64,000 nucleotides of DNA, taken from assembly GCA_021298655.1 (NCBI GenBank), contig JAJTFK010000008.1, positions 1-64,000 of the forward strand. Direction: 5' to 3'. How positions within the stretch are numbered: the stretch's first letter is position 1; every line of letters starts with the position of its first letter. The position numbers and the translations under genes were made by a program. Below, piece by piece: positions 2,789 to 62,885 of the stretch. Origin of the DNA: Cryomorphaceae bacterium (GTDB lineage Bacteria; Bacteroidota; Bacteroidia; Flavobacteriales; Schleiferiaceae). Under the pieces are notes generated by a model. It searched no databases. It was not told where the DNA came from and was given only the letters and a program-made list of their open reading frames with translations.

Positions 2789-5068
2789 ATGAATCCTAAA
2801 TACTCCCTTTTTGCCGCAGTATTGAGTTTAACGCTTGGCCTTCGGGCGCAGCTTCCAAGCCCCAAGGTTGACACCGCAGACCGCTTGGTATTGAACGAGG
2901 TTTCGCTGGTAGCGAGCCGCCCGAGCGAGCGCAGCCCCATGCCCCAACTGCGCCTAAAACCCGCTGACCTGGCGAAGCAAAATGTGGGTCGCGACATCCC
3001 GTTTTTGCTCCAAGGCATGCCCTCGTTTACGGCGGCAAGCGATGCGGGTAACGGGTTCGGATACACGTACTTGAGGTTTCGCGGCATGGACCAGACGCGC
3101 ATCAACGTAACGGTCAATAACGTGGCGCTGAACGATCCCGAATCCCACGGGGTGTTTTGGGTCAACACCCCAGACCTGGGCTTGAACGCCAACTCACTGG
3201 TGGTGCAGCGCGGAGTCGGTACGTCGACGCTGGGAAGCGGAGCCTTCGGGGCGTCGCTCTCGTTTGAGGTCGGCGTGCCCAACGACAGCGCAAGCCAGGA
3301 GCTGACCGCCGCCTACGGCTCGTTCCAATCAGCCCGCCTGAGCTACGCGTTCCACAGCGGCCTGGTGGGCGCCAAAAAGCGCTGGTCCGCCACGGGGCGG
3401 GTGACCGCCATGGGCAGCGACGGAATGGTCGAACGGTCGGGCAGCCGCCTTCAAAGCTACCTGTTTGGGGCGCAGTACCGCCTGCCCGAGTTTACGTGGC
3501 GCCTGCTGCACTTTGCGGGCAGCGAGCGAACGCAGCAGGCCTGGTACGGCATTCCCGAAGCGAAGTTCCGCGGCGATTCCGCCGGAGTCGCCAGCTACAT
3601 TGGACGCAACGGCCTCACCGGAGCCGATTCCGTCAACCTGGTTCAAAGCGGCCCTTCGACCTACAATTTTTACCGATACGCGAACGAGATCGACCAATAC
3701 ACCCAGCGGCACTACCAAAGCATGATGACGTGGTCGCTGAGCCCGAAGTGGAGCTTCACACAAACCCTAGCCGTAGTTACCGGCAGGGGGTACTTTGAGC
3801 AGTACCGCGACTTCATGAGCTTCGCGTCATTGGGCCTTCCCAACATGCCCTTGGGTCAGGTGGTGCTCACGGGAACGGAAGGCGTGCGCCGCCGCTGGCT
3901 CGACAACGGAAGCTTCATGGCCGCTACGTCTATTCAGTACCGCGGCGAGAACCTGCGCTTCGCCGCCGGAATGCAGGACCAGATTTACGACGGGATGCAT
4001 TTTGGCACCCTGCCCTGGCTTCGCTACAACCCGATGGGCGGTTTGGACGGAAGCCAAACGGTGGACAGCCTAACGCTACCGACCAACTCCGCGCTGGACC
4101 ACCGATTTTATGAGGGTTCGAGCCTGAAGTACGACGAGTCCTACTTTGCCCGGGCCGAGTGGACTCGGGGGAAGTGGACGGCACTCGCCGACGCCCAATT
4201 GCGCCGAATCGAGTACGCCAGTTCGGGCACCGACGTGGATCAACATGCCTACGATTTTGACGTCAACTACCTGTTTTTTAATCCGAAGGCCGGACTTTCG
4301 TTCGCAGACAACGGCTGGACGGGACGCGCCTCCGTTGCCCTAGCCAACCGCGAACCCATTCGCTCGGATTTCATCGACAACGCGGTAGCGCCGAACCCCG
4401 AGCGCCTGACCGACGTCGAGCTGGGCGTTGAAAAACGCGGTGCGAAGTTCTGGGCGGAGGCCAACGTCTACCTGATGGAGTACGCAGATCAGCTGGTTCC
4501 AACCGGAGCGCTAAACGACGTGGGTGCCCTAATTCGAACCAATGTGGACCGAAGCCACCGCCGGGGCCTGGAATTGGCGGCCGTTTGGACCCCCTCTACC
4601 CCCTGGCTTTTCGGGGCCAACGCCACGCTGAGCCGAAACCGCATCGCGGAATTTGAGGAGGTACTCTATGACTACGCCGACGGCAGCGAGGTGCGGACTA
4701 CGTTCACGAATACACCAATCGCCCTTTCGCCCGAGGCCATGGGCAATGCCTGGGCGGAATGGACCCGAAAGGGACTCGGATTCCGCGCCACGCTGCATGC
4801 GGTTGGACGTCAGTTCCTCGACAATACGGGAGCGCTGGAACGCTCGCTGGACCCCTACCAAACCGTCGACGCCACGCTGAAGTGGACGCGCGGGGCCGTG
4901 CAGTGGCGCCTCGATGCGATCAACCTCTTGGGCCGTCCCTACGCGCCCAACGGCTACACCTGGGGCTACCTCTACCAAGGCCAGCGGACCGACGAAAACT
5001 TCGTCTACCCCATGGCGGGCACGCAGGTGCTCCTTGGGCTCAACGTGAAACTAGGAACCGGTTACTAG
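2789..5068 (+). CDS. TonB-dependent receptor, probable thiamine uptake (omr1-type)
   Basis: A 759-residue outer-membrane receptor expected to import thiamine or a precursor using TonB energy. The start ATG at 2789 gives a good signal peptide (MNPKYSLFAAVLSLTLGLRAQ); a GTG at 2759 is open but would disrupt it. A plug domain follows (about residues 45-165) with the typical YLRFRGMDQTRINVTVNNVALND stretch split here as RFRGMDQTRIN and NNVALND, then a 22-strand-type barrel ending in an amphipathic strand. Substrate assignment rests on the TPP riboswitch directly upstream. No pnuT, tnr3 or thi genes are adjacent. The stop codon TAG lies inside a heptad repeat and overlaps the stop of the convergent peptidase gene at a CTAG. 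Confidence 0.9.
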   Translation: MNPKYSLFAAVLSLTLGLRAQLPSPKVDTADRLVLNEVSLVASRPSERSPMPQLRLKPADLAKQNVGRDIPFLLQGMPSFTAASDAGNGFGYTYLRFRGMDQTRINVTVNNVALNDPESHGVFWVNTPDLGLNANSLVVQRGVGTSTLGSGAFGASLSFEVGVPNDSASQELTAAYGSFQSARLSYAFHSGLVGAKKRWSATGRVTAMGSDGMVERSGSRLQSYLFGAQYRLPEFTWRLLHFAGSERTQQAWYGIPEAKFRGDSAGVASYIGRNGLTGADSVNLVQSGPSTYNFYRYANEIDQYTQRHYQSMMTWSLSPKWSFTQTLAVVTGRGYFEQYRDFMSFASLGLPNMPLGQVVLTGTEGVRRRWLDNGSFMAATSIQYRGENLRFAAGMQDQIYDGMHFGTLPWLRYNPMGGLDGSQTVDSLTLPTNSALDHRFYEGSSLKYDESYFARAEWTRGKWTALADAQLRRIEYASSGTDVDQHAYDFDVNYLFFNPKAGLSFADNGWTGRASVALANREPIRSDFIDNAVAPNPERLTDVELGVEKRGAKFWAEANVYLMEYADQLVPTGALNDVGALIRTNVDRSHRRGLELAAVWTPSTPWLFGANATLSRNRIAEFEEVLYDYADGSEVRTTFTNTPIALSPEAMGNAWAEWTRKGLGFRATLHAVGRQFLDNTGALERSLDPYQTVDATLKWTRGAVQWRLDAINLLGRPYAPNGYTWGYLYQGQRTDENFVYPMAGTQVLLGLNVKLGTGY

Positions 5069-5085
5069 TTACTGGTTGCTGGTTT
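5058..5085. repeat. Heptad intergenic repeat array (4 units)
   Basis: Four units CCGGTTA, CTAGTTA, CTGGTTG, CTGGTTT (reverse complements of the YWACYRG heptad). The CTAG at 5065-5068 holds the stop codons of both convergent genes, and the last codons of the M1 peptidase (PATSN) are read from the array. Confidence 0.75.
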
Positions 5086-6918
5086 TGGCCAGGTGTTGTC
5101 GTCGCGGTTGACGTCGGCGGTCCACTGACCGGGATCGACCTCGATCGAACGAATGCCCTTCAGCGGGGATTCGATCATCAGGTCAAAGGTCTTTTGGGTG
5201 TAGTTCCAGGGGCCGGCGAGCACGAGCAGCGGATCCTTCTTGTGGCCCTGCTGCTCGAGTAGGGGAATCGTATAGGTCATGCTGGCTCCGCTTTCGTAGG
5301 TCACCTTCACGTCGACGGGCATCGCCATGGACCCGCGGCGCTCCAGGCGCACAAACGTCAGGGCGCGGTTGTCGCTCCACACGCTATCGATGCCGGTGTC
5401 GGGGTACTTGGTCGTGTTGATCCACTGGTCGTGGTACCAATCGAGCACCATGCCCGACTCGCGTTCCGCGATGCGCACGAAGTCTTCGGGGCGCGGATGC
5501 TTGAAGCTCCACTCGTCGAAGTAGCGGCGCATGGTACGCCAGAAGGCGTCGTCGCCGACGATTCCGCGCAGCTGGACCAGGTACAGCGAGCCCATCATGT
5601 AGGCGGCCATTTGGTACGGAAACTTGCCGTCAAAGTAGTTGGCCGGAGTGCTGGCGGGTTCGCGCCACGCAGCCTTGGCGGCGCGCTTGGCAAACGTACT
5701 GAGGTAGCCCTCGTGGGGGTTGGCTTTGTTGGCGCCCGAGATCACGTTCATGACCTCGTCTTCGGCGAAGCTGGTAAAGCCCTCGTCCATCCAATGGTAG
5801 CGCTGCTCGTCTGTGGCCAACATGCCGTAAAACCACATGTGGGAGCCCTCGTGGGCTACGACCCCGAAGGTTCCGAGGTAGTCGTCGCCGTGGGACTCCA
5901 TCAGGGTGCACATGGGGTATTCCATGGCGCCCTCGCCACCCTGAATCACGCTGAATTGGGGCCAGCGGTAGGGCCCAAAGCGCTCGTTCATGAAGGCAAA
6001 GTAGGTCGTTAGGTCGGCGCGGAACCGGTCGCTCTCGTACATCATGCGCGACTTGGCGTCGGGCAGGTAGAAGTAGTGGATTTCGGTTCCGCTCGGCAGG
6101 GTGAAGCGCTGGTGCTGGTATTCGCGGTCGGCCGTCCAGGCAAAGTCGTGGACGTTGTCGGCCGCAAAGCGCCAGGTGATGCGGGACTTTTTCTTGTGCT
6201 TGACGGGCTTTTCGCTGTAGCCGTGCCCTATTTCGTCGGGGTTTTGGAGGACGCCGGTTCCGCCCAACACAAAGCCGGCGTCGGCGGTAACGTTGACCTC
6301 AAAACGGCCAAAATCGCCGTAGAATTCGCGGGCCACGTACAGATCGGGGTGCCAGCCGTCGCGGTCGTACACGCACATTTTCGGATACCACTGCGTGAAG
6401 CTGTAGTCCACGCCCTCCTTGTTGTCTCGGCCGGCGCGCTCGATGACGATCGGAATCCGCGTGGTGTACTCGAGCTCGAACACATGGGTGGCTCCGGGCG
6501 CAATGGGCTCGGAGAGCCGCGCGTGGAGGATGGTTTGCTGTACGTCAAAAGCGACCTCGCGCCCGTTGTGCTTCACGACCCGAACGATTTGCTCGCCCTC
6601 CTCGTGGGGTTTGAGCGCTTCAATCTTGCCGCCAATGGCCTTGTCCTTGAACTGGGTCGGAATGTTGGCCATGTTGCTCATCATGCTTCCGGGCTGAAAG
6701 GCGTTCCAGTAGAGGTGCATGAAGATTTCGTCGAGGGCGTCGGGGCTGTGGTTGGTGTATTCCAGGCGCATTTTTCCCTCGAGCCGGTGCTGGCTGTGGT
6801 CGAGGTCCACATCGATTTGGTAGCGCACGGCCTGCTGCCAGTAGGGCGATTGGGGGGCGGTTTGGGCGATCGCCGCGAGGGACAGCACCGCGGCGGCGAA
6901 AACAACGATTTTTTTCAT
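5065..6918 (-). CDS. M1-family zinc metallopeptidase, secreted
   Basis: A 617-residue gluzincin aminopeptidase-like enzyme. The N-terminus is a signal peptide (MKKIVVFAAAVLSLAAIAQ), so it acts in the periplasm or outside the cell. The zinc motif HEGSH is at 356-360 with the third ligand Glu379 in MDEGFTSF, giving HExxH-x18-E. GEGAMEY at about 338-344 corresponds to the GxMEN substrate motif with Tyr in place of Asn. The beta-rich N-terminal half fits the family. It is the last gene of the operon tadA, MBL hydrolase, M1, 12 nt after the MBL gene. Its C-terminal residues are encoded by a heptad repeat and its stop overlaps that of the convergent receptor gene. Confidence 0.92.
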   Translation of the reverse strand: MKKIVVFAAAVLSLAAIAQTAPQSPYWQQAVRYQIDVDLDHSQHRLEGKMRLEYTNHSPDALDEIFMHLYWNAFQPGSMMSNMANIPTQFKDKAIGGKIEALKPHEEGEQIVRVVKHNGREVAFDVQQTILHARLSEPIAPGATHVFELEYTTRIPIVIERAGRDNKEGVDYSFTQWYPKMCVYDRDGWHPDLYVAREFYGDFGRFEVNVTADAGFVLGGTGVLQNPDEIGHGYSEKPVKHKKKSRITWRFAADNVHDFAWTADREYQHQRFTLPSGTEIHYFYLPDAKSRMMYESDRFRADLTTYFAFMNERFGPYRWPQFSVIQGGEGAMEYPMCTLMESHGDDYLGTFGVVAHEGSHMWFYGMLATDEQRYHWMDEGFTSFAEDEVMNVISGANKANPHEGYLSTFAKRAAKAAWREPASTPANYFDGKFPYQMAAYMMGSLYLVQLRGIVGDDAFWRTMRRYFDEWSFKHPRPEDFVRIAERESGMVLDWYHDQWINTTKYPDTGIDSVWSDNRALTFVRLERRGSMAMPVDVKVTYESGASMTYTIPLLEQQGHKKDPLLVLAGPWNYTQKTFDLMIESPLKGIRSIEVDPGQWTADVNRDDNTWPKPATSN

Positions 6919-16505: not shown

Positions 16506-16513
16506 CAAAGCTA
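16506..16513 (-). promoter_or_regulatory. -7 box TAGCTTTG of the agmatinase-family gene
   Basis: TAGCTTTG on the minus strand, 4 nt (CGGT) before the ATG. The upstream side runs straight into a nine-unit heptad repeat array, so the -33 region would be made of repeat sequence. Confidence 0.55.
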
Positions 16514-16573
16514 GCTTCTAGGTAGCAGTTACGGGTTGCTGGTTGCTGGTAACGAGTTACTAGTAACTGATTG
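16511..16573. repeat. Heptad intergenic repeat array (9 units)
   Basis: The longest heptad array: CTAGCTT, CTAGGTA, GCAGTTA, CGGGTTG, CTGGTTG, CTGGTAA, CGAGTTA, CTAGTAA, CTGATTG, each the reverse complement of a YWACYRG-like unit. It fills the gap between the lamin-tail gene and the agmatinase-family gene. The TAG stop and last residues (PISY) of the lamin-tail protein are read from it. Confidence 0.8.
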
Positions 16574-22393: not shown

Positions 22394-22993
22394 ATGCGTC
22401 GTCTTCTCCAATTTTGCTTTCTTAGCGCACTAGGCGCACTCACCGCCTGTGCCCAACCCAGTAAAAAATCTGCTCCCGTGACTCTTTTGCCCGCAACCCC
22501 AGCCCAGCCCGGTAACGAAACCCTCATTCTCGCCTCAGGCTGTTTTTGGGGCACCGAGTACTTTCTCAAGCGCATCGACGGCGTGGTCGCCACCACGGTA
22601 GGTTACACGGGCGGACACGTCGAAAACCCCAGCTACGAACAGGTTTGCACCAAAAAAACGGGTCACTACGAGGCCTGCCTGGTGGAGTACGACCCGACGC
22701 GCACCAATGCCGAAACCGTGCTGCGCATGTTTTTTGAGACCCACGATCCCACGCAGCGCAACGGCCAGGGCCCCGACATCGGTCCCCAGTACCGCAGCGC
22801 CGTTTTTTACCAAAACGAGGCCCAGCGCGAACTGGCCGCGTCCCTTGTGGCGCAGCTCCGTGCACGGGGCTACGACGTGGCCACCGAATTGCTTCCGGCA
22901 GCCCCGTTTTATTCGGCCGAAGGCTACCACCAAGACTACTACGACATTAAGGGCGGAACGCCCTACTGCCACGGCTACCGACCGTTGTTTTAG
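22394..22993 (+). CDS. msrA: Peptide-methionine (S)-S-oxide reductase, lipoprotein form
   Basis: MsrA reduces the S-epimer of methionine sulfoxide in proteins. The 199-residue product has the catalytic GCFWG motif with Cys50, GYTGGHVENPSYEQVC downstream, and the family's HQDYY near the C-terminus (GYHQDYYDIKGG). The N-terminus carries a signal peptide with a lipobox LTAC (Cys19), so this copy is exported and lipid-anchored and would repair envelope proteins. Its TAG stop is followed without a gap by a heptad repeat array. Confidence 0.95.
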   Translation: MRRLLQFCFLSALGALTACAQPSKKSAPVTLLPATPAQPGNETLILASGCFWGTEYFLKRIDGVVATTVGYTGGHVENPSYEQVCTKKTGHYEACLVEYDPTRTNAETVLRMFFETHDPTQRNGQGPDIGPQYRSAVFYQNEAQRELAASLVAQLRARGYDVATELLPAAPFYSAEGYHQDYYDIKGGTPYCHGYRPLF

Positions 22994-23035
22994 CAACCAG
23001 TAGCTAGTAACCCGTTGCTGGCTATTGGCTTTGGG
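22994..23035. repeat. Heptad intergenic repeat array (6 units)
   Basis: CAACCAG, TAGCTAG, TAACCCG, TTGCTGG, CTATTGG, CTTTGGG start at the base after the msrA stop codon. Units of both orientations occur, and AGCAAC (22992-22997) can pair with GTTGCT (23014-23019). Confidence 0.75.
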
Positions 23036-38319: not shown

Positions 38320-38353
38320 CCCAAGCGGGCGGTGTTCTGGCACGGTGCTTGAG

Positions 38354-38361
38354 TACCTTCG
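38354..38361 (+). promoter_or_regulatory. -7-like box TACCTTCG of the DUF5686 gene
   Basis: TACCTTCG with a 4-nt gap (CGCC) to the GTG at 38366. This geometry is the main reason for choosing that GTG as start. Confidence 0.55.
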
Positions 38362-38365
38362 CGCC

Positions 38366-40606
38366 GTGGTTCGGGTTCACATTCTGGGATTATTGCTGCT
38401 CATTCAGGCCGGTAGTGCCTGGGGTCAAGTCCGTTCCGATTCGCTTCGGAACATAGACCTCGACGCCGTGCTGGTGGTCGCGGAACCCATCGACAAAGCC
38501 TATGAGGTCCTTCGCGAGGCCGGGCGTCGCAACCAACCCCTACCCAGTTTTCAGTGCAGTACGGCGGTGAAGTCGAGCTACGGGGGCGGCTCCGGACTCC
38601 ACCTTCGCGAAGCCTTAAGTGTGAGCCTGTTCGCGGCCCCCGACCGATTCAGTGAGCGCATTTACCTGGCCGACGAGCACCAAGGCGGACGCAGCCTGAG
38701 CGATGGCCGAACCGCCGAAGTGCGGTTCAGCGTAGGGCGCGACGACGGCATCGTCCCCCAAGAGCGCGGGGCCGTGCTGGGCAAGCACTTTTTTGAATCC
38801 TACGCCGACGGGAACCTCGACCTTTACCGGAGTAGCATTGAGCTGCCGCGGCTTGCTACGGTACCCATTCCCTCCCCGCTGGCCTGGGATGCCGAGTTGC
38901 AGTACCGTGCGCGGGTGGTCCAGGCCGAGGCCAAGGGCAACGCGGTACACTGGACCGTCTCGGTCGCGCCGCGAACGGCTTCTGGAGCCCTGCTGCGCGG
39001 TACCCTGGTCATCGAAGACAGCGCCTACACGGTGGTCCGTGCCGACCTGGAGCTTCCCGCCCAAAGTCTGGTTCGCTACACGCAGGTTCGCGTGCAGCAG
39101 TCCTACCGGTTCGCGGCGGGGCGTTCGGTGGTTTCGGCGCGGAATTTCGAACTAATCGACGCGGCAGGCGACACGGCGCGCACCCAGATCCTGCACGACG
39201 AATACGATTTCAACGGCCAACTCCGACCCAAAGACCTCGGGCTTGCGGCCGTGGCCTACGACCAAAAGGCCTTCGACGCCAGCCCAACCGATTGGGCCGC
39301 CGCCCGCAAAATCGCCCTGGATCCGGGCGAATCGCGCCACATCACCTACCAAGACAGCCTGACCTTGTTCTACGATTCGGACAGCTACAAGGACAGTGTC
39401 GACGCCGTGTACAACAAATTTCACTGGTGGGAGCCCCTGGTTTCCGGGGTTGGATTCCGCTCCAGCAAAAAAGGGGTTGAGTGGTTTGTGCTTCCTGTAG
39501 TCGCCCAAATGCGCTTTTTTGGCGTCGGCGGCTACCGCCACAACCTGGGCGGAAGCTTTGCGCGGACGTTTCCGGACCGCCGCCGTCTGGACGTGGAAGG
39601 CAACCTCGACTACGGCGTGGTCAACCGAGACGTCCGCGGCGATCTGAGCTTGAGCTACCTCTACAATCCGCGCAACTTTGGCCTGCTGCGGGTCGAGCTG
39701 GGCGACAACTACACGTTTGTCAACACCTACGAACCCATCTTGGGCACCTTTGCCCGCGGAAACTACGTGCGAAAAACGTTTTTTCAGGGTTCGCACCGAA
39801 TGGAGCTGACCAACGGACTGTACCTGCGGACGTCCTTTGATTTTTCGCGCCGCGAGGCCATAACCGGGCTCAAGCTCGAGGACTGGTCCAACCAGCTGTT
39901 TGGCGAACTCAACGACCCCACGCCGTTTAGAACCTACACGATTGCCTTGGTAGGCGCCGACCTGAGCTACACCCCCGGGCAGCGCTACGTCATGAAGGGG
40001 CCGCGCAAAATTGCGCTTGGCAGCACCTGGCCGACCTTTACGCTGCAGGCCAAGCAGGGCATTCCCGGCCTGCTCGGAGGCATGGTGAACTTCACGTCGC
40101 TCCGACTCAACGCCAAGGACTTCCGGCAGTCGCGCTTTTGGGGCACCACGAATTGGAACCTCGGCGTCGGCACCTTCCTCGCCAAGGAACTGGACTCGAT
40201 TCGCTTCATTGAGCACCGCTTTTTTCGGGGGTCGGACCAGCTGCTGCTCAGCAACCCCACGGCCAGCATGCAGGCCCTGGACTCGACCTACCACACCGCG
40301 CGTCCCTGGGCCGAGGCCTATTTTATTCACCACTTTGACCGCTCCCTGCTCGACCGCGTGCCCCTGGTTCGCGCCCTGCATCTGGTGCCGGTGGTGGGGG
40401 GCGGAATGCTGTACGTCGCCGAGGCCAAGGTTTTTCACGCCGAAGTGTACGGCGGACTCGAGCTGCCCTTCCGACTGTGGGACCAGCGCATGCGCGTTGG
40501 CGCCTACCGCGTTTGGACCGACCAAGGAAATCCGGTTATTCCCGGATTTCGGCTCAAGCTCGGGGTTGATTTTTACGACAGCTACCAAGGCCGATGGTCG
40601 TATTAA
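38366..40606 (+). CDS. DUF5686-family outer-membrane protein
   Basis: A 746-residue beta-barrel protein of the DUF5686 family common in Bacteroidota; function unknown. The GTG start gives a signal peptide (VVRVHILGLLLLIQAGSAWGQ read from fMet) and follows a -7 box by 4 nt; upstream in-frame codons belong to the end of the Nudix gene. Most family members have an N-terminal CarboxypepD_reg-like domain, which is missing here. The barrel part (from about 330) contains the repeated aromatic strand pattern and ends FYDSYQGRWSY. The TAA stop is the first three bases of a heptad array. Confidence 0.82.
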   Translation: MVRVHILGLLLLIQAGSAWGQVRSDSLRNIDLDAVLVVAEPIDKAYEVLREAGRRNQPLPSFQCSTAVKSSYGGGSGLHLREALSVSLFAAPDRFSERIYLADEHQGGRSLSDGRTAEVRFSVGRDDGIVPQERGAVLGKHFFESYADGNLDLYRSSIELPRLATVPIPSPLAWDAELQYRARVVQAEAKGNAVHWTVSVAPRTASGALLRGTLVIEDSAYTVVRADLELPAQSLVRYTQVRVQQSYRFAAGRSVVSARNFELIDAAGDTARTQILHDEYDFNGQLRPKDLGLAAVAYDQKAFDASPTDWAAARKIALDPGESRHITYQDSLTLFYDSDSYKDSVDAVYNKFHWWEPLVSGVGFRSSKKGVEWFVLPVVAQMRFFGVGGYRHNLGGSFARTFPDRRRLDVEGNLDYGVVNRDVRGDLSLSYLYNPRNFGLLRVELGDNYTFVNTYEPILGTFARGNYVRKTFFQGSHRMELTNGLYLRTSFDFSRREAITGLKLEDWSNQLFGELNDPTPFRTYTIALVGADLSYTPGQRYVMKGPRKIALGSTWPTFTLQAKQGIPGLLGGMVNFTSLRLNAKDFRQSRFWGTTNWNLGVGTFLAKELDSIRFIEHRFFRGSDQLLLSNPTASMQALDSTYHTARPWAEAYFIHHFDRSLLDRVPLVRALHLVPVVGGGMLYVAEAKVFHAEVYGGLELPFRLWDQRMRVGAYRVWTDQGNPVIPGFRLKLGVDFYDSYQGRWSY

Positions 40607-40638
40607 CCCGTAACAAGTAACCAGTAACCAGCAACCAA
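40604..40638. repeat. Heptad intergenic repeat array (5 units)
   Basis: TAACCCG, TAACAAG, TAACCAG, TAACCAG, CAACCAA in register from the stop codon of the DUF5686 gene, ending 5 nt before the M61 ATG. The clearest example of the unit (consensus TAACCAG). Confidence 0.85.
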
Positions 40639-40643
40639 GCAAT

Positions 40644-42509
40644 ATGATTCGTTCCTTCTTTTTTGCCGCCCTCGCGCTGGCTGCGACGGCCAAGGCCCAG
40701 TCCGTTTACCGAGTTGACCTCACGGCCGACGGAGCCACTGTGGCGCACACGGGCTTTGCGGCCCCCGACGCGAACCCAGCTGACGGGTTTTCGGCGACCT
40801 ACCACCTGCCCAAGACGGTGCCCGGCACCTACGCCACCCTCGACTACGGGCGGTACGTGACGGACTTTACGGCCACAGACGCCCAAGGCAAGGCCTTGAA
40901 GGTCAAAAAAATGGGGAACAACAGCTGGAAGGTCAGCGGCACCTCAGCCCCCGTCGCCGTGCGCTACAGCGTGGCCAGTATCATGGAGCTCGAAGTCAAA
41001 AAGAACAAGATTTTTGAGCCCGCGAGCACCTTCCACGACGACCAAAAAGGTTCCGTGCTGAACGGCGGCGGCGTGTACGGATTCTGGACCGGCCAAGAGC
41101 GCGGATCGGTGCGCGTAGACCTGGGCACCCCGGCCGGATGGTTCGCGGCTACTTCGCTCGATGGCGAAGCGGGCAACGGACGCACCCTACTGCGCGCCGA
41201 CAGCTACCACGCGCTGCTCGACAACCCCGTGCTGCTGACCAAGCCGGACACGGCCGGATTTTGGGTTGCCAACACCCGCGTGACCATTGCGGTCCTGGAC
41301 CTCAACGGAACCCCACGCGCAGCGGACTTCAAGCGCGAGCTCGAGGCCGATATGGCCGCGGTCGCGCGCTTCCTGCCCCAGCTGCCGGTGGACCGCTACA
41401 CCTTTTTGACGATGGTGGGCGACTTCCGTTGGGCCGGCGACATTTTGTTCAGCGGAAAACCCAGCCTTGGCGGCATCATCAAGGTGGCCAAATCCTTGGG
41501 GAGCCAAGGTTTTGGCGCGCTGGAGCACAATACCTCGTCGGTGTACTACCTCGGCGACTTTGGAACCGGCGAGCGCATGCCCAAGGAGCTCCGCGTCGAA
41601 AAGCAGCTTCTGGACGCCGCCGTTCACGAGTTCATGCACATCATCACGCCGCTGGGCCTGCATGCCCCGGCGATCCACGACTTTGACTACGCCAATCCCA
41701 GCATGAGCCAGCACCTCTGGCTCTACGAGGGCGTGACCGAGTACTTTGCGCAACTGATTCGCTACCAGGGCGGACGCCTCAGCGAAAAGGAGTACCTCGA
41801 CGCGATGCGCGGCAAAATCGTTCAGGGCGAGAAGTTTCCCAACAGCAAGTTCAGCTTCACCGAAATGTCGCGAAACGTGCTCGACAAGCCCTACAAAGAC
41901 GCCTACCTGCACGTGTACGACCGCGGAGCCGTGATGGCCTGGCTGATCGACGCCCGGATTCGCGGTGCGCACGAAGGCCAGAAGTCCCTGATCGACGTCA
42001 TTATGGCGCTGCACACGCAGTACGGTCCGAGCCGCCCCTTCGACGAGGCCGGGTTCTTTGACGCCTTCTGCGAAGTGGCCGAAACCCCGGGGCTGCGCGA
42101 GTTTTTTGCGCGCCACGTCGAAGGCCGGGAGCCGCTTCCCTACGCCGAGGCCCTGAAGCTCGTCGGCCTGGACTACGCCGCAGAGGGCAGCGAAGTAAAA
42201 ACGCTCAACCCGGTTGAAGCGGGTAAAAACGACCTAAAGGTTTCGGTCGAAAACATGGGGATGACCCGTGTGGTGAAAAAGGTAGGGCCCAACGAGTGGG
42301 CCGGGCTCAAGGTGGGCGACGAAGTTTCGATGACGGAATTGGTCGCGGCCCGAAACGAGGCGGTCGACGGAGTCATGAAGTTGCCCGTCACCCGCGGCAG
42401 CGAGCGCGTGGTGCTCGACGTTCCGGTCAAAACCGAAACCGTGGCACGCCCGCACCACCTCAAGGTGGCCAACGACGCGCTTTGGAAGGGCTTTAGCACA
42501 AGGCCGTAG
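40644..42509 (+). CDS. M61-family (glycyl aminopeptidase-like) metallopeptidase with PDZ domain
   Basis: A 621-residue exported peptidase (signal MIRSFFFAALALAATAKAQ). An N-terminal beta domain (about 20-190) is followed by the gluzincin catalytic domain with HEFMH at 328-332 and the third ligand in WLYEGVTEYFAQ about 27 residues later. Residues about 515-600 form a PDZ-like domain (GMTRVVKKVGPNEWAGLKVGDEV as GPNEWAGLKVGDEV). Typical family length. A promoter is not obvious because the upstream region is a heptad array; co-transcription with the DUF5686 gene is likely. The TAG stop starts another heptad array. Confidence 0.92.
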   Translation: MIRSFFFAALALAATAKAQSVYRVDLTADGATVAHTGFAAPDANPADGFSATYHLPKTVPGTYATLDYGRYVTDFTATDAQGKALKVKKMGNNSWKVSGTSAPVAVRYSVASIMELEVKKNKIFEPASTFHDDQKGSVLNGGGVYGFWTGQERGSVRVDLGTPAGWFAATSLDGEAGNGRTLLRADSYHALLDNPVLLTKPDTAGFWVANTRVTIAVLDLNGTPRAADFKRELEADMAAVARFLPQLPVDRYTFLTMVGDFRWAGDILFSGKPSLGGIIKVAKSLGSQGFGALEHNTSSVYYLGDFGTGERMPKELRVEKQLLDAAVHEFMHIITPLGLHAPAIHDFDYANPSMSQHLWLYEGVTEYFAQLIRYQGGRLSEKEYLDAMRGKIVQGEKFPNSKFSFTEMSRNVLDKPYKDAYLHVYDRGAVMAWLIDARIRGAHEGQKSLIDVIMALHTQYGPSRPFDEAGFFDAFCEVAETPGLREFFARHVEGREPLPYAEALKLVGLDYAAEGSEVKTLNPVEAGKNDLKVSVENMGMTRVVKKVGPNEWAGLKVGDEVSMTELVAARNEAVDGVMKLPVTRGSERVVLDVPVKTETVARPHHLKVANDALWKGFSTRP

Positions 42510-42541
42510 CGAGCAACCAGTTACTAGCAACTAGTTACTGG
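42507..42541. repeat. Heptad intergenic repeat array (5 units)
   Basis: TAGCGAG, CAACCAG, TTACTAG, CAACTAG, TTACTGG from the stop codon of the M61 gene. The following CTAG carries the stop of the convergent gene at 42542. Confidence 0.85.
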
Positions 42542-44626
42542 CTAGGCCCATACCACCTTCTCGACCTTGGCCGCCAGGCCGTGCACCAAGTCGTGGTAGA
42601 AGGCCTCAACCTGATTGCGCTTGATTTTCAAACTGGGCGTGATGAAGCCGTTGTCGATTTCCCAGCGCTCTCGGACCACGATGAGCTGAGCAATCCGCTC
42701 GTGCTGGGGTAGTTCGCGGTTCACGGATTCCAGCAGCTGCTGCAGGCGGTGTTCGACCGCCTCGCGGGCTTGAGTCAGGGCATGCTCGGTCAGCACCGCC
42801 AGCGCCACGGGCTGCGGAAGGTTAACGCCAAACAAGCAAACCTGCTCGACTTCGTCGGCCTCCATGATGCGGCCCTCGATGGGCGCGGGGGCCACGTACT
42901 TGCCCTTGGCGGTCTTGAAGATGTCTTTGATGCGGCCGGTGATAAACAGGTAGCCGTCGGCGTCAAAGCGTCCAACGTCGCCGGTGTGCAGCGCGCCGCC
43001 GCGAAAGAGCTCGGCGGTCAGCTCGGGTTCGCGGTAGTAGCCCAGCGTGTTGGTCGGGCTTTCAAGCAAAATTTCGTCGCCGTCGCCCAAAAAGACGCGG
43101 GTTCCGCTAAACGGCTGGCCGACGCTGCCCACGCGCACCTTGCCGCGGAAGTTGACCGTCGTGATGCCCAGGTTTTCGGTCATGCCGTACACCTCTTGAA
43201 TCACGATGCCCAGCGACGCGAACTCGTCGATCAGGCTGGCGCGAATGGGGGCCGCCCCGCTGAGCACGAGCCGCGCCCGCGACAGGCCGAGCTTCTTGCG
43301 CAGCACCGGGGCCAGGGCCCGGCGGAGCCAGGCCGCAGGCAGCTTTCGGTGCAGGTTTTCGGCGAACTTTTCCCAGATGCGCGGAACCGCCAAAAAGACG
43401 GTCGGCTGCGCCCGCTCCAGGTCCGCCGCAAACGTTTCAAGCGACTGCACAAAGTGTACCCTGCCCGTTAGGTAGACGCCGGCAGCCGAAATAATCATGC
43501 GCTCCGCCACGTGGCACAGCGGCAGGTAGCTCAAAAACACCTCTTGGTGCAGGAAGTCAAACTGCGTTAAAATGATGCGAAACGCTTCCTGGAAGTTGCG
43601 GTAGCTGTGCATCACGCCCTTCGGCATTCCGGTGGTGCCCGAGGTGTAAATGACCGTCATCAGGTCGTCGGCGTGCAGCGTCGGCAGCGCCGCGTCGGGG
43701 TCACCGAGCGCGCAGACTTCGTCCCAGCTTCGATCGCCCTCCAGCTGGTGGTCGGGCGTGGTCACCACCTCGATTCCGTGCGGAACGCAGTCCCGGTAGC
43801 GCGCGACGTCGTCGAGCTTGCCCAGCACCACCACTTTGGACTCGGAGTGCTCGAGCACCGCCCGCGCGGTGGGCGCATCAATCGTCGGATAAATGGGCAC
43901 CGAGACCGCTCCGGCCAGCGAAACCCCGTAGTCGTATATCAGCCAGTGGGCCGAATTCTTGCCGATCAGCGCCACCCGATCCCCCGGTTTTACGCCCAGC
44001 GCGTAGAGTCCGCGGGCAAATCGCGCCGCCTCGGCGTAGGCCTCGGCATTGGTAAACTGAATGCGTCCGCCTTCGACGGGCTGGTCCAAAAACAAGCGGT
44101 GCGGAAACGTTTGGGCGTTCCACGCCAGCTGCTCGGGCATCAATCGGCTCGCGCGGTCGGGCGTCAGGTGCTGCAGGCCCTTTTCGGGCACAAATCCTTC
44201 GAGCGGACCCAGAATTTCGAGCACCCGCGCGTCGGTCGCCTCTTTGGTGTCGAGCGGCATGATGGGCGCACTGATGCTCACCACCTTGCGGCCCGCGTCG
44301 ATGCCCAACACCACAATCGGAACCCCCGCCGCCTTGGCGATTTCGTAGTAGCCGCTGCGCAGCGCGTCCACCTTAGCCCGCGTCCCCTCGGGAGCCAGGG
44401 CGAGGCAAAAATTTGGATCGTTTTTAAAATGCTCGACGACTTGGCCTACCACGCCGCCTGCCGCGTGCTGGTCAACCGGAATTCCGCCCAATTGGCGCAA
44501 AAACCAGCCCTGAATGCCGCGGAACAGCGGTTTTTTGCCCAAAACATGCAGGTGGTGCAGCCCGAGGTCCTCGCGAATGCAGAGTCCGGCCCAAAAATCC
44601 TTGCTGTGGGTAAAGCTCCATTTCAT
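42542..44626 (-). CDS. Acyltransferase/AMP-dependent acyl-CoA(ACP) synthetase fusion (Aas-like)
   Basis: A 694-residue two-domain enzyme. Residues 1-145 are a PlsC-type glycerophospholipid acyltransferase domain (KKPLFRGIQGWFLRQLGGIPVD, seen as LFRGIQGWFLRQLGGIPVD, and APEGTR at 78-83). Residues about 165-694 are an AMP-forming long-chain acyl-CoA synthetase with YTSGTTGMPKG at 327-337, YGMTENLG and TGRIKDIFKTAKGKYVAPAP. The order recalls E. coli Aas, which re-acylates lysophospholipids. The HX4D motif of block I is not intact (FTHSKDFWAG where HxxxxDF is expected), and the protein starts right there. A TATCTTGG box 4 nt before the ATG argues the start is real. Activity of the first half is uncertain. 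Confidence 0.87.
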   Translation of the reverse strand: MKWSFTHSKDFWAGLCIREDLGLHHLHVLGKKPLFRGIQGWFLRQLGGIPVDQHAAGGVVGQVVEHFKNDPNFCLALAPEGTRAKVDALRSGYYEIAKAAGVPIVVLGIDAGRKVVSISAPIMPLDTKEATDARVLEILGPLEGFVPEKGLQHLTPDRASRLMPEQLAWNAQTFPHRLFLDQPVEGGRIQFTNAEAYAEAARFARGLYALGVKPGDRVALIGKNSAHWLIYDYGVSLAGAVSVPIYPTIDAPTARAVLEHSESKVVVLGKLDDVARYRDCVPHGIEVVTTPDHQLEGDRSWDEVCALGDPDAALPTLHADDLMTVIYTSGTTGMPKGVMHSYRNFQEAFRIILTQFDFLHQEVFLSYLPLCHVAERMIISAAGVYLTGRVHFVQSLETFAADLERAQPTVFLAVPRIWEKFAENLHRKLPAAWLRRALAPVLRKKLGLSRARLVLSGAAPIRASLIDEFASLGIVIQEVYGMTENLGITTVNFRGKVRVGSVGQPFSGTRVFLGDGDEILLESPTNTLGYYREPELTAELFRGGALHTGDVGRFDADGYLFITGRIKDIFKTAKGKYVAPAPIEGRIMEADEVEQVCLFGVNLPQPVALAVLTEHALTQAREAVEHRLQQLLESVNRELPQHERIAQLIVVRERWEIDNGFITPSLKIKRNQVEAFYHDLVHGLAAKVEKVVWA

Positions 44627-44703: not shown

Positions 44704-45630
44704 ATGATTAAAACGGCAAGTATTCTTGGCCTAACCCTACTTGGCGCCGTCGCTTGGTCCTGGTTCTACAGCCCCGAACTCGAACCGCTTCAACGGCAAC
44801 TCCTTGACAACCTGATCACTATATGGGCCGGATTCACCGCCTACACCTTCGTCGCCGGAGTCCTCACCAGCAACCACAGCCAAGTGGACCGACTTTGGAG
44901 CACCGTGCCCATCGTCTACGCCGTATACGCCGCCTGGTTTACCCAATGGGACCCCCGCGCCACCTTGATGGCCGGGCTCGTCGGCCTTTGGGGTGCGCGC
45001 CTCACCTTCAACTTTGCGCGCCGCGGAGGCTACAGCTGGCTCCCCTGGAAGGGCGAAGAAGACTACCGCTGGGAAGTCCTGCGCCGCATGCCGCCCCTCG
45101 ATAAACCCTGGGTTTGGCAGCTCTTTCACCTGCTCTTCATCTGCGTCTACCAAATGGGCCTGATCCTGCTCTTCACCCTGCCCATCGCCTACGCCTGGCG
45201 CCCGAGTGCCGGACCCAGCGTGCTCGGCAGCGCTGACCTCCTCTTAGCCCTGCTCATGATCGCCCTCATCGCACTTGAATTCGTGGCCGACCAGCAGCAG
45301 TGGACCTTTCAGCGCGAAAAGCACCGCCGCCGCGCCGCCGGCGAAGACCTCGGACCCGTCTACGGCAAAGGCTTTGTGCACACCGGCCTCTGGGGCCTGT
45401 CGCGCCACCCAAACTACGCCTGCGAACAGTCCATCTGGGTCGTATTCTACCTCTTCACTGGGGCCGCCACCGGCGAATGGCTCAACGCCAGCATCGTCGG
45501 CTGCATCCTGCTCATCCTCCTCTTTCACGGAAGCGCCAACTTCAGCGAAGGCATCAGCGCCGGCAAGTACCCGGACTACGCAGACTACCAAAAGCGCGTG
45601 GCGCGCTTCCTGCCGGGGCTCAAAGGCTAG
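44704..45630 (+). CDS. DUF1295-family (steroid 5-alpha-reductase-like) membrane protein
   Basis: A 308-residue integral membrane protein with about seven hydrophobic segments. Conserved C-terminal features LGLSRHPNY-type (here WGLSRHPNYACEQSIW) and KYPDYADYQKRVARFLP define the DUF1295/ICMT-like family, whose members reduce or methylate lipid-like substrates; the actual substrate is unknown. It is divergent from the acyl-CoA synthetase fusion, which suggests, weakly, a lipid role. Its TAG stop lies in the first unit of an octad array. Confidence 0.88.
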   Translation: MIKTASILGLTLLGAVAWSWFYSPELEPLQRQLLDNLITIWAGFTAYTFVAGVLTSNHSQVDRLWSTVPIVYAVYAAWFTQWDPRATLMAGLVGLWGARLTFNFARRGGYSWLPWKGEEDYRWEVLRRMPPLDKPWVWQLFHLLFICVYQMGLILLFTLPIAYAWRPSAGPSVLGSADLLLALLMIALIALEFVADQQQWTFQREKHRRRAAGEDLGPVYGKGFVHTGLWGLSRHPNYACEQSIWVVFYLFTGAATGEWLNASIVGCILLILLFHGSANFSEGISAGKYPDYADYQKRVARFLPGLKG

Positions 45631-45680
45631 GTGGCTGGTTGGCTAGGTGGCTGGTTAGCTAGGTGGCTGGTTAGCCAGCC
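45625..45680. repeat. Octad intergenic repeat array (7 units)
   Basis: GGCTAGGT, GGCTGGTT, GGCTAGGT, GGCTGGTT, AGCTAGGT, GGCTGGTT, AGCCAGCC: an 8-nt period with a 16-nt super-period. It contains the stop codons of the DUF1295 gene (TAG 45628-45630) and of the convergent glycosyltransferase (TAA, 45655-45657), and codes for the latter's last residues NQPPS. Confidence 0.9.
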
Positions 45681-46545
45681 AGAATTCCTTGAACTTTGTT
45701 CGATAGGGCTTAAAGCGCTCATCTTCCGTTTTTACCTGACTGCACGCAATAATGTTCTGATCGAAGCTAAAGTCTGAATCAGCATACCCAAAAGCGACCT
45801 GCCGTCTATTGCGCTTTAGTTCAAAAAACTCCTCTGTTCGAAAGTAATAGTGATTAAGGAAGCCGCTGGCCTTCGATGGTCGCGCGCCACCATAAAGCAA
45901 AGGTTCATGTGGTCCGAATTGAAAAGAGAAAAACCGATCGCACCTGAAGAACGATTTATATTGAGCATGGGGAGGATATTTTTCTTCTGCTCTGCCTAAA
46001 GAGGCTAAAATCAACGACTTCGTGGCATTAAACGATTCGGGATCTGCTGGACCATAAAACTGCCAATAAAGTCGAACACTTGAATGCTCTTCTACTAAAT
46101 GACTTTCTAAGAAATCCCCTACGGAGTAAAATCCGTCAAAAAAAACAAACTCATCGGTGTCGATTAAGGCTAACCATTTAAAATCGGCCATGAATTTTTT
46201 AACGTATTCATTAAAAAGTGCAACCTGAGTCTGTACCCCACTAAATGGTGTACAATCATGAATTAATGTCACACGAATTCGCACACTTTCAGGAAGATAT
46301 GAATAATCGCCACACACTTCATTATTGTCAATGAGCACAATATGGTCAACCTCTGCCACGAACAAATGGTAAATTAACCATTCGGCTAGGTACTTTTCCT
46401 CGCCCTTAGTAAACGTCAACAAACCGGTATGAAACTTCGGCAAATTATTGGTCCGCGGAATCCTAATCCAATTTGCAAGAAGCAAATAGAGTTGCAGGGC
46501 TTTTAACCACCCCCCCCCCGCTTTAATTAGTCTAGAATAACTCAT
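45655..46545 (-). CDS. Glycosyltransferase (GT2/GT92-like) with in-frame poly-G tract
   Basis: A 296-residue probable glycosyltransferase of the 'glycosyl transferase family 92/DUF23-like' group. The motif IDTDEF at 128-133 would bind metal and nucleotide sugar, and LLTFTKGEEKYLAEWLIYHL (first part LLTFTKGEEKYLAEW, 42-56) is characteristic of the group. No signal peptide. The gene is clearly A+T-richer than all neighbours and uses AAA/TTT/ATT codons, a sign of recent transfer. Codons 9-12 contain a run of ten G, so slippage could switch the gene on and off. Sugar and acceptor are unknown; a surface glycan or O-glycan is likely. Confidence 0.8.
   Translation of the reverse strand: MSYSRLIKAGGGWLKALQLYLLLANWIRIPRTNNLPKFHTGLLTFTKGEEKYLAEWLIYHLFVAEVDHIVLIDNNEVCGDYSYLPESVRIRVTLIHDCTPFSGVQTQVALFNEYVKKFMADFKWLALIDTDEFVFFDGFYSVGDFLESHLVEEHSSVRLYWQFYGPADPESFNATKSLILASLGRAEEKYPPHAQYKSFFRCDRFFSFQFGPHEPLLYGGARPSKASGFLNHYYFRTEEFFELKRNRRQVAFGYADSDFSFDQNIIACSQVKTEDERFKPYRTKFKEFWLANQPPS
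46510..46519 (-). repeat. Homopolymer of ten G near the start of the glycosyltransferase
   Basis: Ten C on the plus strand, ten G in the coding strand at codons 9-12 (Ala-Gly-Gly-Gly). In this window I noticed no other homopolymer of this length. A change of one or two bases would frameshift the gene after residue 12. Confidence 0.85.
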
Positions 46546-46717: not shown

Positions 46718-48031
46718 ATGAAAAGCCACTCCAACACCCTCAAGGCCGCTGTAATTGGTGCCTTAGCTCTGATTTTGCTCATTCCCGCAGCCTTGGTCCA
46801 GGAAGTTGTGGATGAACGGTCCGCGCTCGCCGAAGAGGTGCAAACGGAACTTGGCGAACAGTGGGGGCGTCCCCAAACCGTCGTGGGGCCCTACCTCGTG
46901 GTGCCCTACCGATACTCCGCTTCTGAAACATCCAGCAGCGGCCGCAGCAGCAAGACCATCCGCACCGGATACCTGCACATTCTACCCGAAAAATTGACGG
47001 TCAACGGGCGAATTGAGCCCGAAGTCCGTCGGCGCGGAATCTTTGATGCCGTCGTCTACGCGACCCACCTCAGCATGTCGGCCCGCTTTCGCAAGCCCAA
47101 CCTGAACGAGCTCGGCATCGACCCGAGTTCCGTCTCGTGGTCCCTGGCCACCCTGAACTTGGGCATCAGCGACGCGCGCGGACTCAAGGGAACGTCCAGT
47201 GTACGCTGGAACGGCACCAAAATCTCCCTCGCCTCGGGATTGGCAAGCGACAACCTCGCCGAGCAAGGGGTGCGCGCCCCGGTAAACGTAGACGGCAACC
47301 TGAGCGTTGAGGTCGACCTCGACCTCCTGGGGAACGGCGGATTTTGGGTGGCCCCCACGGGCTCTACAACCGACGTAACCATGACCTCGCCCTGGACGTC
47401 GCCGAGCTTTAGCGGTGCCTTTCTGCCCGACAAGCACGACCTTACCTCAGAGGGCTTTCACGCCACCTGGACCGTCAACCACCTCAACCGCTCCTACGGC
47501 GAGGTGCTCCAAGAAGGCGATTTTCAAGACTTAGTCAGACAATCTGCGCTCGGCGTCGACCTCATTCAGCCGGTGGGGCACTACCAAAAAGCCCACCGCG
47601 CCGGCCGCTACGCCATTCTGTTCATCGGCCTGTCCTTTGTCACCTTCTTTTTGATGGAAGTCCTCAACCGACTGCGCATTCACCCCATTCAGTACGCTTT
47701 GGTCGGAATCGCGCTGGTACTCTTCTACTCGCTGCTGCTTTCCATCTCGGAGCACGTCGGATTTAACTGGGCCTACGTGGCCGCGGCTACGGCCACCGTG
47801 TCGTTGGTCACGGCGTATTCGGCCACCGTGCTTAAGGCCCGCAAACTGAGCGCCGGAGTCGGAACCCTTTTGACGGTCCTGTACGTGTTCTTATTTGTCG
47901 TGATCCAGCTCGAAGACTACGCCCTCCTCGTCGGAAGCCTTGGCCTCTTTGCCGTCGTCGCCGCCGTCATGTACTTCAGCCGAAACGTAAACTGGTACGA
48001 CAATCCAAGTCCCGGCGAACAAACTAACTAA
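46718..48031 (+). CDS. creD: CreD-family inner-membrane protein
   Basis: A 437-residue membrane protein of the CreD (cell envelope integrity) family: an N-terminal helix (KAAVIGALALILLIPAALVQ), a ~270-residue periplasmic domain with the conserved RSALAEEVQTELGEQWG-type opening (RSALAEE...GRPQTVVGPYLVVPY), and five C-terminal helices. In gamma-proteobacteria creD is induced by CreBC; no such regulators are here. The ATG at 46718 is preferred over an in-frame ATG-like start 10 codons upstream because MKSHSNTLK matches the family's start. The stop TAA and last codons lie at the beginning of an octad array. Confidence 0.9.
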   Translation: MKSHSNTLKAAVIGALALILLIPAALVQEVVDERSALAEEVQTELGEQWGRPQTVVGPYLVVPYRYSASETSSSGRSSKTIRTGYLHILPEKLTVNGRIEPEVRRRGIFDAVVYATHLSMSARFRKPNLNELGIDPSSVSWSLATLNLGISDARGLKGTSSVRWNGTKISLASGLASDNLAEQGVRAPVNVDGNLSVEVDLDLLGNGGFWVAPTGSTTDVTMTSPWTSPSFSGAFLPDKHDLTSEGFHATWTVNHLNRSYGEVLQEGDFQDLVRQSALGVDLIQPVGHYQKAHRAGRYAILFIGLSFVTFFLMEVLNRLRIHPIQYALVGIALVLFYSLLLSISEHVGFNWAYVAAATATVSLVTAYSATVLKARKLSAGVGTLLTVLYVFLFVVIQLEDYALLVGSLGLFAVVAAVMYFSRNVNWYDNPSPGEQTN

Positions 48032-48061
48032 CTAACCAACTAGCCAACTAGCTAACCAGCC
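48022..48061. repeat. Octad intergenic repeat array (5 units)
   Basis: AACTAACT, AACTAACC, AACTAGCC, AACTAGCT, AACCAGCC between the convergent creD and sbtA-like genes. Stop codons of both genes (TAA 48029-48031; TAG on the minus strand at 48048-48050) and the last residues of the permease (WLVS) come from it. Confidence 0.9.
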
Positions 48062-48986
48062 AATAATACCACGGAATCCCCAGCGTCATGTTGACCGGGA
48101 AGGTCAACGCAAGCGCCATGGGCAGGTACACTCCGGGGTTGGCCTCAGGCAGGGCGATGCGCATGGCTGCAGGGACTGCGATGTAGCTGGCGCTGGCCGC
48201 CAGCACGCTCAGCACAAAGCGGGCTTCCGCTGGGGCCCCGGTGACGCTGGAAATCAGGGCCATAAGCGTTCCGTTGACCAAGGGAAGCAGCAGCGCCAGG
48301 GCAAAGGGCTGCCAGCCGGCGGCGAGTAGGGCTTTGATGTTGCGTCCGCTGGACAAGCCCATGTCAAGCAGGAAGACGGCCAAAAAGCCCTTAAACAGGT
48401 CGTTGGTGAAGGGACGAATGCCCTCGGCCTGTACGTCGTCGGTCAGGAATCCGACCAAGAGGCTTCCGAGAACGAGGACCACCGAGCCGTTGGTCAGGGC
48501 GTGGCGCAGCCAAGAATTCGTTCCGCCCGAAGCCCCGGCCCGGCGCGCCAACCAGAGGCCCACGACGATGGCCGGTGCCTCCATGAAGGCCATGACGGCC
48601 ACCATGTAGCCCGGAAGGTGCAGGCCGAGGCGCTCAAGGAAGGTGCCGGCGGCCACAAACGTTACGGCGCTCACCGACCCGTAGGCGGCGGCGACGGCTC
48701 CGGCGTTGGCCACCCCGAGGGAGCGCTTGGCAATCCAAAACACGTAGACCGGAATCAGCACCGACGAGGCGAGGGCCAGGAACAGCACCGCGGTACTGTC
48801 GGGCCGAAGGGCTTCGTGGGCCAGCTCTTGTCCGCCTCGAAACCCGATCGACAAGAGCAGGTAGATCGAAATGAACTTCGACGAGGTTCCGGGAAGCTCC
48901 AGGTCGCTCCGAATGAGGGCCGCAGCAATTCCGAGCAAAAAGAAGAGCAGCGCAGGGCTGGTGAAGTTTTCAAGCAGTAGGCTCAT
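48048..48986 (-). CDS. Sodium-dependent bicarbonate transport family permease (SbtA-like)
   Basis: A 312-residue inner-membrane protein with about ten helices, related to SbtA/DUF897 permeases that import bicarbonate with sodium in cyanobacteria. Typical features are the two inverted five-helix halves, FLLGIAAALIRSDLELP near 20-36, and LLSIGFRGGQEL near 49-60. Start ATG at 48986 overlaps the dihydroorotase stop (ATGA). With the SulP/carbonic anhydrase pair 8 kb away it points to active inorganic-carbon supply. A divergent LysR gene lies upstream of the operon. Confidence 0.88.
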   Translation of the reverse strand: MSLLLENFTSPALLFFLLGIAAALIRSDLELPGTSSKFISIYLLLSIGFRGGQELAHEALRPDSTAVLFLALASSVLIPVYVFWIAKRSLGVANAGAVAAAYGSVSAVTFVAAGTFLERLGLHLPGYMVAVMAFMEAPAIVVGLWLARRAGASGGTNSWLRHALTNGSVVLVLGSLLVGFLTDDVQAEGIRPFTNDLFKGFLAVFLLDMGLSSGRNIKALLAAGWQPFALALLLPLVNGTLMALISSVTGAPAEARFVLSVLAASASYIAVPAAMRIALPEANPGVYLPMALALTFPVNMTLGIPWYYWLVS

Positions 48987-53448: not shown

Positions 53449-53464
53449 ATTAGCCAGAAACATG

Positions 53465-53485
53465 TAACTCGTTACTGGTAACTGG
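53465..53485. repeat. Heptad intergenic repeat array (3 units)
   Basis: TAACTCG, TTACTGG, TAACTGG, 16 nt after the dprA stop and just before the terminator hairpin of the convergent operon. Confidence 0.7.
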
Positions 53486-53520
53486 CAAAAAAATCCAGCC
53501 CCGCGTTGACGAAGCTGGAT
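53486..53520 (-). terminator. Terminator of the speA operon (minus strand)
   Basis: ATCCAGC (53493-53499) and GCTGGAT (53514-53520) form a 7-bp stem with a 14-nt loop, followed on the minus strand by seven T. Confidence 0.7.
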
Positions 53521-62805: not shown

Positions 62806-62845
62806 TTCAGCCAAGGGTTGCCAGATTAGCTTAGAAACAGCGCGC

Positions 62846-62885
62846 AACCAACCAGCCATCTAGCCGCCCAGCCAGCCACCTAGTG
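62846..62885. repeat. Octad intergenic repeat array (about 5 units)
   Basis: AACCAACC, AGCCATCT, AGCCGCCC, AGCCAGCC, ACCTAG(TG) between the M28 gene and the convergent polA. The TAG stop of polA (minus strand, 62880-62882) lies in the last unit. Confidence 0.8.

Follow-up and report, generated by a model that had tools for sequence, protein, structure and literature searches.

Cyanobacterial STRR sequences consist of short tandem units, with heptanucleotides the commonest, and lie mainly between genes. REP sequences are palindromes associated with a transposase. The closest described system, in the passages of MacGregor 2015 (PMC4679880) drawn on here, is a family of TAACTGA heptamer direct repeats in Beggiatoaceae, Cyanobacteria and some Bacteroidetes. 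TAACTGA repeats provide stops in all three forward frames, and 13 sets overlap the stop of the upstream gene; most sets lie just upstream of start codons, and those inside proteins are mostly at the periphery. The unit is a single sequence with stops on one strand, and translational regulation was proposed. Table 3 of that paper includes TAACTAG, gives its translations as LVTSN- and LLVTSY- and predicts a stem-loop for it, and the paper's summary of earlier work describes "long simple sequence repeats", which are short, tandem, most commonly heptanucleotides and mainly intergenic. For yeast and fly, the portion of PMC4494051 used here describes C-termini that arose de novo by stop loss.

The main idea pursued below, that heptamer arrays overlap stop codons, is already in print for TAACTGA in those same passages (PMC4679880). 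The arrays analyzed here are likewise intergenic 7-mer direct repeats, patchy over distant lineages and overlapping stops, and the TAACTAG of Table 3 is the T-form of the Schleiferiaceae unit. They differ from the TAACTGA repeats as there described in that the unit is degenerate, AACYAGY or AACYAGCC (7 and 8 nt), rather than perfect; starts are avoided (1 of 30 overlapped), convergent ends are favoured, and CTAG closes both strands. The units given in the consulted sources for cyanobacterial STRR and long simple sequence repeats also differ from AACYAGY and AACYAGCC. Like REP/BIME sequences, the arrays are numerous short extragenic elements with alternating orientations and hairpin potential, but they are built from a 7-nt tandem unit. 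As in the yeast and fly cases of PMC4494051, old proteins acquire their final residues from non-coding DNA; here, however, the source is a repeat that brings its own stops, so that ends shift mostly by 0-5 residues. New are the unit, the two-strand stops via CTAG, the convergent-end bias, the comparison with orthologues and an insertion in MutS. Searches of one open-licence library gave no paper on any of these points or on the repeats of this clade.

The window, by which we mean the whole 64,000-nt stretch analyzed, is part of a 1.6-Mb bin that is 97% complete. To locate arrays we used a hidden-Markov detector that models two units, the 7-mer AACYAGY and the 8-mer AACYAGCC, in either orientation. 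Genes were called by codon usage, and at least one real gene was missed, the minus-strand ORF 45655-46545, which has a glycosyltransferase domain (Pfam PF13704). Nine degenerate arrays were detected in the window and none in its reversed sequence; their units are AACYAGY or 8-mers such as AACTAGCC, and several arrays mix both orientations. The arrays are listed here with the two genes that meet at the first of them; a strand is given where one was assigned.

2789 to 5068, plus strand: gene for a TonB-dependent receptor plug-domain protein, ending ...NVKLGTGY
5049 to 5084: 7-mer array, overlapping both flanking genes by 20 nt; RNA fold z -4.9 on the plus strand
5065 to 6918, minus strand: gene for an M1-family peptidase, ending ...PATSN
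16510 to 16573: 7-mer array in minus orientation, containing the stop 16560 of a minus-strand gene (ending ISY)
22991 to 23028: 7-mer array, beginning with the TAG that ends the methionine sulfoxide reductase gene 22478-22993 (PF01625)
40601 to 40637, plus strand: 7-mer array, containing the TAA of 38345-40606 (DUF5686)
42506 to 42545: 7/8-mer array in a convergent gap, containing TAG 42507-42509 (plus) and the stop 42542-42544 (minus)
45625 to 45682: 8/16-mer array (GCTAGGTGGCTGGTTA) in a convergent gap, with stops 45628-45630 (plus) and 45655-45657 (minus); all six frames closed
48022 to 48063, plus strand: 8-mer array (AACTAGCC) in a convergent gap, with stops 48029-48031 (plus) and 48048-48050 (minus); all six frames closed
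53451 to 53488, plus strand: weak 7-mer array (detector score only 0.8), 2 nt past the TGA of 52402-53448 (DprA family)
62845 to 62882, plus strand: 8-mer array (detected to 62878), reaching the minus-strand TAG 62880-62882 of a DNA polymerase A gene

A reading of the window from its sequence alone had attributed the stop codons of at least nine genes to these arrays. This was borne out: 11 stop codons lie within arrays, at the positions which that reading had named, apart from the stop at 62880, which lies 1 base outside, and the one at 22993, which it had not included. The TGA at 53448 is 2 bases off its array. The CTAG at 5065-5068 serves, as had been proposed, as the stop common to two convergent genes, 5068 on the plus strand and 5065 on the minus strand, according to both the window sequence and the gene calls. 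The suggestion that the last residues of several proteins are encoded by the repeat likewise held for the termini TSN, ISY, LVS and NQPPS.

DNA of relatives was picked mainly by synteny with the window. The relatives to which a single conserved gene pointed are MAGs carrying the labels Schleiferiaceae, Cryomorphaceae, Flavobacteriales or Bacteroidota. The genus falls into two clades: an array-rich one of nine genomes (G000, which holds the window, and G001, G004, G006, G007, G010, G017, G032 and G033), with about 90% protein identity to the window in one gene, and an array-free one with about 60%, also in one gene. The habitat of the array-rich clade is presumably freshwater, as we read some isolate names (Baikal, Loclat). 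The detector found 39 arrays in 458 kb of the nine array-clade genomes versus one in 199 kb of nine array-free-clade genomes; period-7 tandem units thus exceeded chance in the array clade, and reversed controls of both clades gave no arrays. One member of the array clade, G006, had none in its 50 kb. More widely, at least one exact three-unit array was present in 15 of 395 genomes drawn from the class, and a scan of viral contigs gave 8 stretches with a pure four-unit array. The assemblies of MAGs are possibly error-prone at repeats.

A position between called genes could be assigned to 37 of the 39 arrays. Convergent gaps, 6.4 kb in total, held 18 of them; 17 fell in tandem gaps (18.8 kb) and 2 in divergent gaps (46 gaps, 12.9 kb), with array 45625 counted as tandem though it is really convergent, its minus-strand neighbour having been missed by the gene caller. 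Arrays overlapped 25 of 53 adjacent stops versus 1 of 21 adjacent starts in this sample. At other sites in the genome of the window, found by pattern (19 loci used of 39 pattern matches, 11 of 30 loci being omitted as in the window or duplicates), the corresponding numbers were 17 of 29 and 0 of 9. Pooled overlap was 42 of 82 stops versus 1 of 30 starts (p = 7e-7, with orthologous sites counted more than once), and in tandem gaps alone arrays overlapped the stop side in 12 of 16 and the start side in 1 of 16.

Stop overlap was also compared with random placement of each array in its own gap, with at most 20 nt of overlap permitted (28 nt where the window was tested by itself). In the sample of nine genomes 25 stops were overlapped against an expected 12.2 +/- 2.2, and none of 20000 draws was as high. 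The window alone showed no excess (11 of 15 stops against 9.3 expected, p = 0.16), nor did the other sites in its genome (17 of 29 against 16.2, p = 0.44), because gaps there are about as long as the arrays. Tight gaps therefore account for part of the stop overlap, a possibility for which the sequence-only reading had itself allowed among its refuting conditions, but not for the asymmetry between stops and starts. Overlap with stops exceeds chance in the nine-genome sample and in the asymmetry, but neither in the window by itself nor at the other sites in its genome.

These observations are best read, with a probability of roughly 0.68, as a slippage-prone repeat that is tolerated at 3' ends thanks to the stops that it brings, the AACYAGY/AACYAGCC family having spread in one small-genome Schleiferiaceae clade (Flavobacteriales). 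This degenerate 7-mer or 8-mer tandem repeat would be maintained and renewed, presumably through slippage during replication, mostly in 3' intergenic DNA; in these compact genomes an array often occupies the entire gap and extends into the preceding gene. Stops are present in units that have T at position 4 (CTAG) or at position 7 (TAA), so that an array at a gene end exchanges the stop trinucleotide for its own, along with a few final codons at most, and it is because the array carries its own stops that it would be tolerated there. Overrunning a start, which needs an ATG and a ribosome site, would not be. The boundary would then be set by selection rather than by function. Stop-free units, with C at the two in-frame critical positions, survive within genes, in flexible loops or as linkers of the QPATSNQ type.

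The main rival takes the arrays to be functional bidirectional 3' elements, either terminators or mRNA-stabilising hairpins, with the stop overlap incidental. The strong bias to convergent gaps and the near-palindromic unit would suit such a role, as would the folding of some arrays relative to shuffles (5049-5084, z -4.9; 45625-45682, z -4.8; 22991-23028, z -4.0); the mean array z was about -1.05 per strand versus -0.35 at non-array 3' ends of the same clade. Mixed orientation and strong folding (z to -4.9) are not predicted by simple slippage. On the other hand, both strands fold well (z below -1.5) in only 6 of 39 arrays (15%), the array at 40601-40637 lacks plus-strand structure, and arrays also occur inside genes. 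Structure is moreover lost across orthologous sites, with z values of 0.7, 1.0, 0.3, 1.4 and -0.2 for 40606 and of -2.9, 1.0, -0.1, -1.6 and -0.7 for 22993. We regard a functional 3' element as unlikely. Folding of arrays and of orthologous 3' ends gave some strong hairpins, but a hairpin conserved at orthologous gene ends was looked for and not found, which speaks against an intrinsic terminator.

Gene ends were compared with those of orthologues from the array-free clade and from the eight further species of the array clade. Thirteen gene ends of the window are at arrays (12 called, plus 45655), of which 10 were comparable, with 45655 and 48031 left out for want of the orthologue end and 48048 for want of a clearly array-free orthologue. 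Seven of the ten (5065, 16560, 22993, 40606, 42509, 42542 and 62880) have an array-free orthologue whose final residue matches or lies at most one position away and whose downstream sequence is unrelated. Residues were identical for the DUF5686 gene (40606; array-free G007), the M61 peptidase (42509; G010 and G006, with TAA), the AMP-binding protein (42542, with TAG; G006, with TGA) and DNA polymerase A (62880; G006 and G004); the last residue of the methionine sulfoxide reductase (22993, ending LF) is identical in relatives with and without arrays. The 16560 gene ends PIRY or PIRF in the array-free relatives G004, G006 and G007.

The remaining three genes differ by 4-5 residues. The protein of 2789-5068 has 4 more than five orthologues ending ...KLVF or ...KLVL. 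The plus-strand DUF1295 protein (45630) is 5 longer than its orthologues, although these relatives look array-like by eye where the detector scores G001, G010 and G017 as having none. DprA (53448) is 5 residues shorter than three relatives and 1 shorter than three others. The terminus WLVS or WLIS at array 48022-48063 is found in 4 of the 4 species having that end.

The sequence-only reading had proposed that the original ends of genes may have been eroded or replaced by arrays. Erosion as a rule was not supported when all window gene groups with orthologues were considered: C-terminal lengths differed by a mean of 0.76 residues in the 12 groups with an array and by 0.63 in the 32 groups without, so that arrays brought no increase (Mann-Whitney p = 1.0). 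What survives of the proposal is small replacement of the last 1-3 codons, such as PIRY to PISY or LVTSN. At a convergent junction outside the window, between genes that we take from their sequences to be uvrC-like and lolD-like, array-free relatives have overlapping genes ending ...ALGL and ...GRLQA; in the genome of the window they end ...ALGTSN and ...GKLVASN. Judging by these alignments, the usual effect of an array is a changed stop codon, sometimes with the last 1-3 residues and rarely more. Array-bearing and array-free sister species thereby present a case in which a simple repeat takes over a gene end harmlessly, bringing its own stop; for annotation, recurrent TSN or ASN termini should be treated as repeat products, not as homology.

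Arrays occurred at 13 of 58 orthologous stops where the window has one versus 3 of 187 where it does not, with changed units; both copy number and units vary between species at a shared site. Persistence of sites with changing units fits turnover by slippage.

Two side observations concern array junctions. One convergent junction in the bin of the window was assembled twice, at the ends of contigs C35 and C36 (L029 and L030, 94% identity), with different array copy number, array sequence and last residues, representing either two strain versions or an assembly duplicate. In other array-clade species, the 3' ends next to the orthologues of the 5065 gene (L031, L032, L039 and L040) carry GC-rich palindromic repeats such as GCGCTTCGCGC, a second repeat family.

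The orthologues also bear on whether arrays insert or nucleate at pre-existing TAG or CTAG stops and do not replace other stops. Several arrays do start exactly at a TAG (22991, and those of L139, L140, L158 and L163), and some array-free relatives have TAG at the site of the 16560 gene. Against this, the TAA at 42509 and the TGA at 42542 in array-free relatives indicate that stop identity changed together with the array (an unrooted comparison), and at 22993 two of three array-free relatives within the array clade have TAA (also unrooted). Insertion at existing TAG stops is accordingly given still less credence than a functional 3' element.

Two of the 21 arrays at other sites in the genome of the window are inside genes, in frame and free of stops. 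One (L015 594-642; L207-L211) lies in a protein that we take from its motifs to be MutS, before GRHPVIEQ and the TGPNMSGKS motif, ahead of the ATPase domain. It is present in 5 of 6 array-clade species (G000, G001, G004, G010 and G033) versus none of 12 array-free ones; left out were G007, whose contig begins past the site, and G017 and G032, neither of which yielded a MutS covering it. G006 has an insert without array units, and all 12 MutS proteins of the array-free clade lack the insert. The other (L016 1500-1571, G000:C40) encodes a linker with QPATSNQ repeats in a 188-aa protein, found in 5 of 8 array-clade species versus 0 of 10 others. The repeat is therefore not confined to gene ends but lives where its reading is harmless, and the in-gene insertions, MutS included, form a testable set.

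Two further features of these proteins were seen. The MutS of the genome of the window has the terminus GTSN, derived from a second array. The 188-aa protein of this genome lacks, beside the array, some 30 residues that are conserved in relatives, through a real deletion or an assembly fault.

A bolder version, which we hold to be very improbable, makes the repeat a translation-compatible genome filler: the choice of pyrimidine at two positions per three units would yield either a stop or a harmless QPATSNQ linker, so that it could fill gene ends and interiors and remodel proteins, and an array in the MutS loop before the ATPase domain could weaken repair and feed repeat instability. MutS, the mismatch-repair protein that would police such repeats, is itself a carrier of one.

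The supply of stops by the arrays was assessed with the stop codon masked before detection. TAG made up 21 of 30 stops in or within 5 nt of an array versus 81 of 259 elsewhere (p = 6e-5); most genes of the clade have no array. TAG stops inside arrays were in the context CTAG in 25 of 32 cases, versus 23 of 77 elsewhere. Arrays contain 1.41 CTAG each versus 0.18 in length-matched other intergenic DNA.

Closure of reading frames depends on the unit. Pure AACCAGC has no stop in any frame and AACCAGT has stops on one strand only, whereas 26 nt of AACTAGT, AACTAGC or AACTAGCC are enough to close all six frames; a unit needs CTAG to close both strands. On average 3.9 frames are closed by an array versus 2.5 by length-matched intergenic DNA, and all six are closed by 8 of 39 arrays versus 3.4% of such DNA. 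The statement that a few units give stops in all six frames on both strands holds for 2 of the 9 window arrays and those 8 of 39, but is not general because AACCAGC units carry no stop. The related description of the arrays as stop cassettes is apt insofar as they supply stops, on both strands where CTAG is present, but not for the stop-free versions inside genes. That arrays were selected as two-way stop cassettes against read-through or frameshift products is the least probable account of all, since, in spite of the concentration in arrays of a tetramer depleted in these genomes (438 CTAG versus 873 expected under a Markov model), only those 8 arrays close six frames, stop-free AACCAGC units are common, just 30 of 289 array-clade stops adjoin an array, and array-free sister species manage without.

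The genome G019, from another family of the order (35% GC in the stretches analysed), has long pure AACCAGT arrays in tandem gaps, the longest intergenic one measuring 148 nt (L170-L184). Used as a replicate (15 stretches, with 11 arrays between genes and 4 at contig edges dropped), it showed no abutment to stops, its arrays overlapping 2 stops and 1 start out of 11 each; stop abutment is thus a trait of the compact clade and not of the repeat.

The depletion of CTAG in the 458-kb array-clade sample ranged from about twofold (Markov) to fourfold (base composition), yet CTAG is the core of the repeat. Away from arrays, TAG still accounted for 77 of 255 stops in the array clade, a larger share than the 19 of 101 seen in the array-free clade.
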